Shown here: in pieces, positions 6,888 to 44,654 of the stretch
Layout of the letters: every line of letters begins with the position of its first letter
How positions within the stretch are numbered: position 1 is the stretch's first letter
NCBI GenBank assembly: GCA_027485815.1
Contig: JAIXQE010000069.1
Coordinates: 1 to 64,000, forward strand
Length of the DNA stretch: 64,000 nucleotides
From: Opitutaceae bacterium
GTDB lineage: Bacteria > Verrucomicrobiota > Verrucomicrobiia > Opitutales > Opitutaceae
Direction of reading: 5' to 3'
The notes under the pieces: generated by a model
The model's database searches: none
Seen by the model: the letters and a program-made list of their open reading frames with translations, nothing else
Told to the model about the DNA's origin: nothing
Program-made: the position numbers and the translations under genes

Positions 6888-7544
6888 ATGAACCCGTCCG
6901 ATTTGGAACGCTGGAACCAGGAACTCCGCTCGCAAACCCCGAGCGACATTGTGCGCTGGGCGCTGGCCCGGGCGGAAGGCCGGGCGTTGGTGTCGACCAA
7001 CTTTCGCCCCTACGAGGCCGCCCTGCTCCATCTGGTGGTCCGCGAACAGCCGGATCTTCCCGTGCTCTGGGTGGACCACGGCTACAATCGGCCGGCCACG
7101 TACCGGCACGCCGAGGACCTGCGCCTCCGTCTGAATCTCAATCTGAAGGCTTACCTGCCGCGGATGACGGCCGCGCACCGCGATGCGCTGCACGGCGCGG
7201 TGCCCACGCCCGAGGACGAACCCGGCCTGAAGCGCTTCAGCGCGGTGATGAAGCTGGAGCCCTTCCAGCGCGGAATGCGCGAATTGGCCCCGACCGTCTG
7301 GCTCACCGCCCTGCGCAAGGTGCAGAACCCCGGGCGCGCGGAACTCGACATCGTCTCGCGGGACGGGAATTTCGGCACGTTAAAGGTCAGCCCTTTCTTC
7401 CACGCCTCGGACGCCGAAATGGACGCCTACCTCGCGCGCCACGGATTGCCCAATGAATGGGATTACTTCGACCCGGCGAAGGCGGACGAGAAACGGGAGT
7501 GCGGGTTGCACGCGGCGTGGGGCCGCAACGCCGTTTCCGCCTGA
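6888..7544 (+). CDS. cysH: phosphoadenylylsulfate reductase family protein
   Basis: 218 aa; ALVSTNFRPYEAALLHLVVREQPDLPVLWVDHGYNRPATYRHAEDL; C-terminal ECGLH. Confidence 0.9.
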   Translation: MNPSDLERWNQELRSQTPSDIVRWALARAEGRALVSTNFRPYEAALLHLVVREQPDLPVLWVDHGYNRPATYRHAEDLRLRLNLNLKAYLPRMTAAHRDALHGAVPTPEDEPGLKRFSAVMKLEPFQRGMRELAPTVWLTALRKVQNPGRAELDIVSRDGNFGTLKVSPFFHASDAEMDAYLARHGLPNEWDYFDPAKADEKRECGLHAAWGRNAVSA

Positions 7545-15942: not shown

Positions 15943-15971
15943 AAAAAAGGCGCGGACCCGAGGTCCGCGCC
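15943..15971 (-). terminator. intrinsic terminator downstream of pal
   Basis: Minus strand: ggcgcggacc-tcg-ggtccgcgcc followed by tttttt. Confidence 0.8.
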
Positions 15972-15992: not shown

Positions 15993-16577
15993 TCAGAGCG
16001 GCTTGCCCGCCACGCCGCCGGCCGCAGCCGCAGGATTCACGACCACCAGATCCACGCGCCGGTCACGGGCCATCGCCGCCTCGTCGCCATTCTTGGCGGC
16101 ATCGAGGCTACCCTTGGAGAGCGTCTCGAGTCGGGCGGCCGGGACGCCGATCGACTGGAGGTACTTGCGGACCGCGTTGGCGCGGCGATCGCCGAGGCCA
16201 AGGTTGTATTCGGCCGTGCCGCGCCAGTCGCAGTGGCCCTCGAGCAAGAGGCGGTGGGTCGGATTCTTGTCGAGATACTCCTTCGCCGCCTTGAGCTTCT
16301 CCCGTTCGGAGGCGCGCACGTCGGACTTATCGAAGTCGAACAACACGGCCTGCGCCTGCAGCGCGGTCCGATTGTGCCCATTCGGGTCGAAATCCGAGCC
16401 GCGGTCAGTCAGCCCGGTGGTTTCCTGTCCGAAGGAGGCGTCGACCGGGGCGGCGCTTCCTTGCGGTCCGAGGACCGTGGAGGCCGGGCTGGGGCGCATC
16501 GGCTGTTTCGAGCAGCCGGAGAGGAAGGCCGCCGCGGCCGCGGCGACGCAGAGGGAACGGAAGAGCGTGCGGTTCAT
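15993..16577 (-). CDS. pal: OmpA-family peptidoglycan-associated lipoprotein
   Basis: Lipobox FLSGCSKQ; LFDFDKSDVRASEREKLKAAKEYLDKNPTHRLLLEGHCDWRGTAEYNLGLGDRRANAVRKYL. Confidence 0.9.
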   Translation of the reverse strand: MNRTLFRSLCVAAAAAAFLSGCSKQPMRPSPASTVLGPQGSAAPVDASFGQETTGLTDRGSDFDPNGHNRTALQAQAVLFDFDKSDVRASEREKLKAAKEYLDKNPTHRLLLEGHCDWRGTAEYNLGLGDRRANAVRKYLQSIGVPAARLETLSKGSLDAAKNGDEAAMARDRRVDLVVVNPAAAAGGVAGKPL

Positions 16578-16626
16578 GGAAAAAGAGGGAGCCTGCGTTC
16601 GGTAATGACCGAGGGCGGAGGAGGGG

Positions 16627-16638
16627 GGCAAGGCTTTT
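16627..16638 (-). promoter_or_regulatory. AAAAGCCTTGCC motif, candidate -35 region of pal
   Basis: Exact 12-mer, 49 nt upstream of the pal start; same 12-mer upstream of tRNA-Lys and rpmI. Confidence 0.45.
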
Positions 16639-16640
16639 GC

Positions 16641-17288
16641 TCAGACCGTGACCCGGGGCTCGATCAAGCCGACCTCAAAGGCGTAGCGCGTGAGGCTGGC
16701 GACGTCGTGGAGATCGAGCTTGCGCATCAGGTTTGTCCGGTGGTTGTCGACCGTCTTGGCGCTGATGCCGAGCTTCGCGGCGATCTCTTTCGTGCTGTGG
16801 CTTTCGGCGACGAGCTGGAGGATCTCACGCTCCCGATCCGTCAGGAAATCCGGCGCGTTGCTGGAAGCAGGGTTCGCCACGACGTTCCGGAGCAGGGAGG
16901 CGACGGCGGGGCCGAAGTAGTTTCCTCCATTCGCCACCGTGTCGAGTCCCCGCCGGAACTCCGCGAGCCCGGCGGTCTTTTCCACGAAACCGTGGGCGCC
17001 CGCCTCGAGCATCTCGCGCACCAGCACGGGGTTCTCGTGGGCGGAGAACACCAGCACCCGCATCTGCGGCAGGCGGCGGCTGGTGCGGCGCAGGATTTCC
17101 ACCCCGTTCAAGCCAGGGACCTTCGCGTCGAGGATGCAGACGTCCGGCGCCTTGGCCAGGCACAGGTCTACCGCGGACTGGCCGTCCCCAGTCTGGCCCA
17201 CGAGTTCGTAGCCCGGTTCCAGCCGCAGAATCTCCACCAGCATCTCGCGGATGGCGGTCTGGTCTTCAACGATGACGAGGCGTTTCAT
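16641..17288 (-). CDS. NarL/FixJ-family response regulator (receiver + LuxR HTH)
   Basis: MKRLVIVEDQTAIREML...CILDAKVPGLNGVEILRR...FLTDREREILQLVAESHSTKEIAAKLGISAKTVDNHRTNLMRKLDLH. Confidence 0.95.
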   Translation of the reverse strand: MKRLVIVEDQTAIREMLVEILRLEPGYELVGQTGDGQSAVDLCLAKAPDVCILDAKVPGLNGVEILRRTSRRLPQMRVLVFSAHENPVLVREMLEAGAHGFVEKTAGLAEFRRGLDTVANGGNYFGPAVASLLRNVVANPASSNAPDFLTDREREILQLVAESHSTKEIAAKLGISAKTVDNHRTNLMRKLDLHDVASLTRYAFEVGLIEPRVTV

Positions 17289-17313
17289 GGCAGGGTGGGG
17301 AAGGGCGGGCGAC

Positions 17314-17388
17314 TGGTGGGTCGACTGGGATTCGAACCCAGAACCAACGACTTAAAAGGACGCTGCTCTACCATTGAGCTATCGACCC
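17314..17388 (-). tRNA. tRNA-Lys (anticodon TTT), CCA encoded
   Basis: Cloverleaf GGGTCGA-TA-GCTC-AATGGTA-GAGC-A-GCGTC-CTTTTAA-GTCGT-TGGTT-CTGGG-TTCGAAT-CCCAG-TCGACCC-A-CCA. Confidence 0.93.
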
Positions 17389-17430
17389 GGCAGCCGGGGC
17401 CGAGGAACCTGCGGGCCCCGTTCCGGGGGT

Positions 17431-17442
17431 GGCAAGGCTTTT
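17431..17442 (-). promoter_or_regulatory. AAAAGCCTTGCC motif, candidate -35 region of tRNA-Lys
   Basis: Exact 12-mer, 42 nt upstream of the mature tRNA 5' end. Confidence 0.5.
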
Positions 17443-17461
17443 CGCCCCCTCCCTCGCCGGG

Positions 17462-17490
17462 TTGACGCGCCGCCGGCGGACCGATTTACT
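17462..17490 (+). promoter_or_regulatory. possible sigma70-like promoter of the sigma factor gene
   Basis: TTGACG - 17 nt - TTTACT. Confidence 0.35.
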
Positions 17491-17554
17491 TTCCTATTTA
17501 CCGCGACCCGTGGGAACTTTTTCCGAACAGGCGAATCAGAGCGACGCGGAACGC

Positions 17555-18157
17555 ATGACCGCCAAAGCCCAGGAAGTAGCCCTCGACCGCCTGCTGGTCG
17601 ACCGTTTCAAGGGTGGCGACGAAGCCGCCTTCGGGGAGATCGTCTCCCGCTATCGGGACCGCATTTACGCGATGGTGCTCCAGCTGTTGCGCAACCGGGA
17701 GGATGCCGAGGAAGTCACTCAGGACGCCTTCATCCGCGCACACCGCGGATTGGCCCAGTTCCGGGGTGATTCCTCGTTCTCCACGTGGCTCTACCAGATC
17801 GCGACCAATCTGGCCCGAAATCGCTACTGGTACTGGTGGCGGCGGAAGCGGGATTTCTCGGTGTCCTTCGATGCGCCGATCAACGGGGACAGCGACCTGA
17901 CGCTGGCGGACGTCATTCCGGCCGAGGTGCCCGCGCCGGACGATGTGACCGTGAACGAGGAGTTTGTCGGCCGGATCGCCGTGGGAATGGAGCGTCTCTC
18001 CAGCAAGCACCGGGAGGTGCTGGTGTTGCGAAATGTGCGCAACCTCGCGTACGAGGATATCGCGCAGATCCTCGGCATATCGGTGGGCACGGTGAAGAGC
18101 CGCATTGCCCGGGCCCGGGAGGCGCTGCGCGAGCAGCTGGGGGAGGATTTTTCATGA
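17555..18157 (+). CDS. RNA polymerase sigma factor, ECF/sigma-70 family
   Basis: GDEAAFGEIVSRYRDRIYAMVLQLLRNREDAEEVTQDAFIRAHRGLAQFRGDSSFSTWLYQIATNLARNRYW; LAYEDIAQILGISVGTVKSRIARAREALR. Confidence 0.95.
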   Translation: MTAKAQEVALDRLLVDRFKGGDEAAFGEIVSRYRDRIYAMVLQLLRNREDAEEVTQDAFIRAHRGLAQFRGDSSFSTWLYQIATNLARNRYWYWWRRKRDFSVSFDAPINGDSDLTLADVIPAEVPAPDDVTVNEEFVGRIAVGMERLSSKHREVLVLRNVRNLAYEDIAQILGISVGTVKSRIARAREALREQLGEDFS

Positions 18158-37338: not shown

Positions 37339-37533
37339 TCAGAGACCGAACGGGAGGGCGCGCTTGAGCGCCTCGGCATGGCCGTCGGCCACCAGCTTGT
37401 CCCGGGTCGCACGACGCTTCTGCTTCGTGCTCTTCGAGCCAAGCAAGTGACGGAAGCCAGGCGTGCGGCGCACGAGCTTGCCGCGGGCGGTGAGTTTGAA
37501 CCGCTTGGCAACGGACTTCTTGGTCTTTTGCAT
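37339..37533 (-). CDS. rpmI: 50S ribosomal protein L35
   Basis: MQKTKKSVAKRFKLTARGKLVRRTPGFRHLLGSKSTKQKRRA. Confidence 0.96.
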   Translation of the reverse strand: MQKTKKSVAKRFKLTARGKLVRRTPGFRHLLGSKSTKQKRRATRDKLVADGHAEALKRALPFGL

Positions 37534-37569
37534 GGAAAGCGTTCAAACACAGGGAGTCACCCCGGGGTT

Positions 37570-37581
37570 GGCAAGGCTTTT
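37570..37581 (-). promoter_or_regulatory. AAAAGCCTTGCC motif, candidate -35 region of rpmI-rplT
   Basis: Exact 12-mer, 36 nt upstream of the rpmI start. Confidence 0.45.
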
Positions 37582-43407: not shown

Positions 43408-43484
43408 CGCCCGGATTCCGGCGCCGGCGCCGCGGCGGCGCAATTTCATTTGCGGCGCGGGCGCATCACCCTTGCGTTGCGCGG

Positions 43485-44654
43485 ATGACACCGCCGCCCG
43501 AGCTCTCCCCAGCCGATCTCGCTCGGTACGGGCGGCACTTGTCGCTGGCCGAGATCGGCCTCGAGGGGCAGCGCAAGCTCTCGGCGGCCCGAATTTTGGT
43601 GGTGGGGGCCGGCGGCCTCGGCAGCCCGGCCGCGCTTTACCTCGCCGCCGCGGGGGTCGGCACGCTCGGGATCGCCGACTTCGACCGGGTGGAGCGCCAT
43701 AATCTCCAGCGCCAGCTCCTCCACGACGATGCGGACGTTGGCGTTCCCAAGGTTGAGTCTGCGCTCCGGCGGCTGCGGACCGTCAACCCAGGCATCCGGT
43801 TCAACGCCCACCCGGAAGGCGTTCAGCCGGGAAACGCGCGCACCCTGTTTTCCGCCTACGACGTGATCGTGGACGGAACGGACACCTTCGCCAGCCGCTA
43901 CCTGAACAACGACGCGGCCGTGCTTACGGGCCGGCCGCTGGTCCACGGGAATGTGTTCCGTTTCGATGGGCAGCTGAGCGTCTTTGATCCGGCGCGGGGA
44001 GGTCCCTGTTACCGCTGCCTGTTCCCGGAACCGCCGCCGGCGGGCGCGGTGCCCTCCTGCGGCGAGGCGGGAGTTCTGGGGGCGCTCTGCGGGGTCATCG
44101 GCAGCCTGCAGGCGCTGGAGGCGATCAAGCTCGTGACTGGAGCCGGAGAGCCGTTGCGCCGCCGACTTCTGGCCTACGATGCCCTCGCCCAGCGCTTCCA
44201 GATCCTGTCGCTCGCACGGGACGCCGCCTGCGCGGTTTGCGGCGATGCGCCCGTCATCCGCAGCCTGCAGCCGGAGCGTTACGCGCCGGCCTGTGCGGTC
44301 CCCTTCCCCGCTTCCGTCATGCCCGAGTCCTTCCCCCTCGAACTCTCCGTCACGGCCGCGCGCGACCTGCTCCGCCAAGACCCGGCCCGCGTCCGCATCA
44401 TCGATGTGCGCGAACCCCACGAGCTGGCGATCTGCCAGCTCGACGGCGCCGAGCACATCCCGATGCGGCGCATCCCCGAGCACCTCGGAGAACTGCCGCG
44501 CGACCAGCACCTGCTGATCCTGTGCCATCACGGCAGCCGCAGCCTGCACGTGACCCGCTACCTCCGGCAGCAGGGCTTCACCGGCGTGAGCAACATCGCC
44601 GGCGGTATCGACGCCTGGGCCGCGGAGGTCGATCCCTCCCTCGCCCGCTACTGA
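43485..44654 (+). CDS. ThiF/MoeB-type E1-like adenylyltransferase fused to a rhodanese domain
   Basis: RILVVGAGGLGSPAALYLAAAGVGTLGIADFDRVERHNLQRQLLH; CYRC...CAVC; rhodanese VRIIDVREPHEL...ILCHHGSRS. Confidence 0.92.
   Translation: MTPPPELSPADLARYGRHLSLAEIGLEGQRKLSAARILVVGAGGLGSPAALYLAAAGVGTLGIADFDRVERHNLQRQLLHDDADVGVPKVESALRRLRTVNPGIRFNAHPEGVQPGNARTLFSAYDVIVDGTDTFASRYLNNDAAVLTGRPLVHGNVFRFDGQLSVFDPARGGPCYRCLFPEPPPAGAVPSCGEAGVLGALCGVIGSLQALEAIKLVTGAGEPLRRRLLAYDALAQRFQILSLARDAACAVCGDAPVIRSLQPERYAPACAVPFPASVMPESFPLELSVTAARDLLRQDPARVRIIDVREPHELAICQLDGAEHIPMRRIPEHLGELPRDQHLLILCHHGSRSLHVTRYLRQQGFTGVSNIAGGIDAWAAEVDPSLARY

Follow-up and report, generated by a model that had tools for sequence, protein, structure and literature searches.

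The three copies of the 12-mer AAAAGCCTTGCC found in the 64,000-nt stretch of DNA analysed here (the window, 64 kb) are very probably, at roughly 0.9 as judged from the sequence, the upstream halves of ordinary housekeeping σ70 promoters, i.e., an UP-like A/T tract followed by a -35 hexamer. The sites constitute no new regulatory element and are conserved as promoters in relatives. This reading is based on position, orientation, spacing, enrichment and conservation, and on the canonical appearance of the sigma and alpha subunits; from these, we infer the actual start sites, binding by the C-terminal domain of the RNA polymerase alpha subunit (alpha-CTD), and promoter strength. The host was placed in the Opitutaceae (Verrucomicrobiota) by the relatives of its rplT. 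All three copies lie on the minus strand, at 16638-16627, 17442-17431 and 37581-37570, exactly where the original prediction had located them. As it had also claimed, they are always intergenic, 49, 42 and 36 nt upstream of pal (start at 16577), tRNA-Lys (17388) and rpmI (37533), respectively. The features of the three sites are:

15993 to 16577, minus strand: pal-like lipoprotein gene, with an OmpA C-terminal domain
16602 to 16608, minus strand: putative pal -10 region, TCATTA (spacer 17) or CATTAC (spacer 18), assigned from position and conservation
16626 to 16638, minus strand: pal promoter, upstream half; AAAA at 16638-16635 (about -42 to -39), -35 hexamer TTGCCC at 16631-16626
17314 to 17388, minus strand: tRNA-Lys (anticodon TTT)
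17406 to 17411, minus strand: tRNA-Lys -10 candidate CAGGTT (spacer 18), a weak match
17430 to 17442, minus strand: tRNA-Lys(TTT) promoter, upstream half; AAAA at 17442-17439, -35 hexamer TTGCCA at 17435-17430
37339 to 37533, minus strand: rpmI (ribosomal protein L35), followed by rplT (L20)
37546 to 37551, minus strand: rpmI -10 candidate TGTGTT, conserved in position, without the usual A at -11
37569 to 37581, minus strand: rpmI promoter, upstream half; AAAA at 37581-37578, -35 hexamer TTGCCA at 37574-37569

In the proposed arrangement, sigma region 4.2 would bind TTGCC(A/C) as the -35 hexamer, while the alpha-CTD would touch the minor groove of the AAAA (about -42 to -39), which would thus act as an UP-like element. 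A GC-degraded -10 element would follow 17-18 nt downstream of the -35. Transcription would start roughly 7 nt past the -10, so that the predicted starts are some 10 nt away from the mature tRNA-Lys, about 5-7 nt from the start codon of rpmI, and about 18-20 nt from pal, in each case on the upstream side. The promoter interpretation had been offered from the outset and is supported by position, enrichment and conservation, the -35 core being TTGCC and the adjacent A-tract contributing to function. The observation that TCATTA is located 17 nt after TTGCCC at pal was likewise confirmed.

The Opitutaceae set examined in front of rpmI comprised 79 sequences, namely the window and 78 further loci (or one fewer, if a locus lacking a gene call is left aside), and 77 of them have a -35/-10 pair. 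Among these 77, the hexamer is TTGCCA in 49 and TTTACA in 25, with other forms in the remaining three. TTGCCA and TTTACA are each one step away from TTGACA, and their alternation is what would be expected of recognition by sigma region 4, unlike that by a separate regulator. Positions -7 to -5 before the TTG are 100% A/T, alternating between AAA and TTT among sequences, and the spacer to the TGT of TGTTTT or TGTGTT measures 17 nt in 68 of the 77. One of these two -10 forms is found in most Opitutaceae (37546-37551 on the minus strand of the window), TGTTTT being the majority form, and it is strongly conserved although it lacks the near-universal A at -11. At the tRNA-Lys site, most genus members carry GAGAAATTTCTTGCAA, then CATTTT 18 nt on, while GAAAAGCCTTGCC occurs before tRNA-Lys only in the closest clade. 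At the corresponding position before pal, relatives have CTAAAA or CAAAA and then [GA]CCTTGC. The -10 there reads CATTAC or CATTTC in close relatives and CATAG[CG] or AATAGG in more distant ones, and CTAAAAGCCTTGC[CG] is retained in relatives with CATAGC or AATAGG at the -10.

The three sites belong to a looser class, in which the centre of an A/T tract lies 5-7 nt ahead of TTG[AC]C. This class was scanned as A/T3-N2-6-TTG[AC]C in a 0.9 Mb sample of the genome, taken in stretches and comprising 647 genes, with starts called by a simple codon-usage gene finder. Its density is 1.03 per kb in intergenic DNA facing a gene, as compared to 0.16 per kb in other intergenic DNA and 0.079 per kb in coding DNA, i.e., the class is 13 times denser in gene-facing intergenic than in coding DNA, with a peak 34-50 nt before starts. 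The original prediction had proposed to count the motif in intergenic versus coding DNA and to determine its distance to starts; the looser class turned out to be both enriched and positioned, whereas the exact 12-mer has only three copies. An A/T tract together with a -35-like hexamer is found in 20 of 33 tRNA upstream regions (2.9 expected, 2 in antisense), the TTG being mostly 37-49 nt from the tRNA. Moreover, an A/T tract precedes 26% of upstream TTGs versus 6% of those in coding DNA (p=5e-15), and yAnnnT follows at a spacing of 16-18 in 21% versus 1.5% of coding TTG[AC] (p=1e-25), with no such enrichment at spacings 14, 15, 19 and 20 in the 0.9 Mb sample. With positions counted from the TTG, A/T bases are over-represented at -9, at -7 to -5, at +23 to +25 and at +27 to +28, which are the places of the proximal UP element and the -10 hexamer. 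Individual -10s are weak (CATTAC for pal, CAGGTT for tRNA-Lys, TGTGTT without the -11 A for rpmI), and a two-block EM search for a sharp -10 yielded only a W-NNN-T pattern. A scan with the strict E. coli consensus returned no promoter near pal or tRNA-Lys because the -10 is degenerate.

The σ70 (RpoD) promoter consists of a -35 TTGACA and a -10 TATAAT, separated by 17 ± 1 nt. The promoters described here are similar in their hexamers (TTGCCA, TTTACA, TTGAC), their spacers of 16-18 nt, the enrichment of A at -11 and T at -7, their position before tRNA and protein genes, and the canonical-looking regions 2.4 and 4.2 of RpoD. They deviate from the consensus in that the fourth base of the -35 is more often C than A, and in their very degenerate -10 (yAnnnT), which resembles TAnnnT, a form described from other bacteria of high GC content (PMC3160421). 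As in the UP element with its proximal alpha-CTD site, an A/T-rich stretch lies directly upstream of the -35, and the C-terminal residues of RpoA are conserved. Unlike in the UP element, this stretch comprises only 3-5 A/T bases, placed strictly at -5 to -7 before the TTG (about -42 to -40), and no distal subsite was seen upstream of the class motifs. In a comparison by eye with the E. coli sequences, RpoD regions 2.4 and 4.2 look canonical, as does the alpha-CTD of RpoA (VRAANC, GKKSLNEIK), in which R265- and K298-type residues are present. With RpoD and RpoA both looking canonical, the "lineage-specific" promoter of the original prediction is unproven. Contacts of the alpha-CTD through R265 and K298 have been described (PMC7822876).

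Alternatively, the sites could bind a specific activator or repressor common to pal, tRNA-Lys and rpmI, which would define a small growth-related regulon. The occurrence of the exact 12-mer at three unrelated genes of one genome and its conservation before rpmI and pal might suggest such a protein, but we regard it as improbable, since the same architecture is found before most tRNAs and many unrelated genes, the general class coincides with the -35, and the motif keeps core-promoter spacing to the -10. In addition, orthologues switch the hexamer from TTGCCA to TTTACA and the A-tract to TTT, which fits sigma and alpha better than a single protein, so that the shared activator site initially considered is not needed. 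Recognition by an alternative sigma factor with a AAAAGCCTTGCC -35 motif appears less probable still. A candidate would be the ECF-type sigma factor encoded at 17510-18157, whose gene adjoins tRNA-Lys in divergent orientation, and ECF promoters often have well-defined -35 motifs. However, tRNA and L35 are housekeeping products expressed constitutively, there is a continuous gradation from the class to TTGACA and TTTACA, and the associated yAnnnT is σ70-like. Given ordinary housekeeping σ70 promoters, both a regulon-specific activator and an ECF sigma factor are unnecessary.

The exact 12-mer is the overlap of three members of a common, degenerate class, and its 12-nt identity is coincidence: footprints differ among orthologues, the exact tRNA-Lys form being confined to the close clade, which implies that each of the three promoters arrived at these 12 letters on its own. 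The only exact copies of AAAAGCCTTGCC in the 4.08 Mb genome are the three in the window, as compared to 0.16 expected genome-wide from base composition; shuffles gave 0.13 expected matches with one mismatch allowed. There are 9 additional one-mismatch forms in the genome versus 4 for the reversed control, and the intergenic ones precede rplU, tRNA-Tyr and other genes. The original argument that a 12-mer is not expected three times by chance holds only in part. The window, with 69% GC, contains 109 distinct 12-mers with at least 3 copies, 4 of which have at most 6 G/C, and for this reason recurrence alone is weak evidence. Likewise, the nominal chance near 1e-4 of finding all three copies within one 21-kb stretch refers to a 12-mer that was picked because it recurs in that very window. 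Exact copies in 27 genus genomes, summed by hand and then matched to promoter coordinates, total 27 versus 25 for the reversed control, and 21 of the 27 sit in rpmI, pal or tRNA-Lys promoters. The evidential strength of the sites is their position and conservation, and the original treatment of the exact 12-mer as the unit did not hold up. As a genome-wide element, exact AAAAGCCTTGCC is ruled out by its three copies and by genus counts equal to those of the control.

Least probable of all is a chance recurrence in which the copies have no function in common, or their origin from a duplicated or mobile repeat. This would accord with the confinement of all exact copies to 21 kb, with the more than 100 other 12-mers that recur at least three times in the window and with the genus-wide counts, but is contradicted by the footprint before rpmI (77 sequences), by the strong enrichment of the position class, by flanks that are unrelated beyond 12-16 nt, and by the retention of the sites at orthologous positions while the flanks diverge. 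A duplicated or mobile repeat was rejected in view of the differing flanks. The genes upstream of the three sites are also all different: the pal copy begins 2 nt past the stop codon of a gene for a LuxR-type response regulator, while at rpmI the 12-mer starts 8 nt past the stop of a gamma-glutamyltranspeptidase gene. A search for structured RNA found the tRNA alone. Other 12-mers and 11-mers recur 3-5 times in the window (at 7460, 30392 and 44804, and at five GATGATCTCGA sites), apparently in coding DNA.

In the 0.9 Mb sample, the distance from the -35 box to the start codon has its peak at exactly 35 nt. TTG[AC] is found at 34, 35, 36 and 37 nt before starts at 13, 23, 13 and 15 sites (64), respectively, versus 1.7 expected per position, and the excess amounts to some 57 of the 432 upstream regions in the sample (13%). 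With σ70 geometry, a TTG 35 nt before a start codon would place the start site on the start codon itself. Many leaderless mRNAs, from about 13% of genes, are accordingly predicted in this SD-poor genome, with its 45 SD-like tetramers as compared to 152 of the complementary ones. Genes in the 34-37-nt peak use ATG in 56 of 64 cases, as compared to 274 of 368 for the others (p=0.025). In the window, a TTG at 43450 on the plus strand, 35 nt before a start at 43485, is an example. The TTG[AC] peak is weaker in a sample of the single-contig family member G029 and weak in G064, an SD-rich member of the order with 47% GC. No such peak before starts was seen in a 400 kb sample of the genus member G008, whose rpmI and tRNA-Lys promoters nevertheless carry the motif.

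Leaderless genes exceed 20% in Actinobacteria and Deinococcus-Thermus and are common in high-GC groups (PMC3160421), and SD-scarcity has been reported for a few Verrucomicrobia (PMC10783764). The predicted mRNAs resemble the leaderless genes of high-GC bacteria in that the promoter spacing makes the transcription start coincide with the start codon in an SD-poor context. They differ from them in having been detected via the -35 box, in about 13% of sampled upstream regions, and the pal, tRNA-Lys and rpmI sites have predicted short leaders instead of none. A more far-reaching and rather doubtful possibility is that in some Opitutaceae, the strictly placed A/T triplet at -42 to -40 and TTG(C/A)C carry most of the recognition, with the -10 nearly lost (at rpmI down to the missing -11 A), many starts on the start codon, and leaderless, SD-free initiation as one of the main expression routes. 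In the open literature searched, nothing direct was found on mapped promoters or transcription starts for Opitutaceae or Verrucomicrobia. With the σ70 reading, a core-promoter model becomes available for Opitutaceae, a group in which most of the relatives encountered are uncultured, and it can serve to predict start codons, operon starts and promoters from genome sequence. Through the connection with leaderless transcripts, a question of translation would become testable in cultured relatives.

With regard to the surroundings of the first two sites, pal and tRNA-Lys adjoin, about 0.8 kb apart (15993-18157), in most genus members, so that the arrangement is conserved, and in the source genome the response regulator gene sits between them. 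Directly 3' of pal, a strong intrinsic terminator-like hairpin with a T run is located at 15949-15971 on the minus strand.
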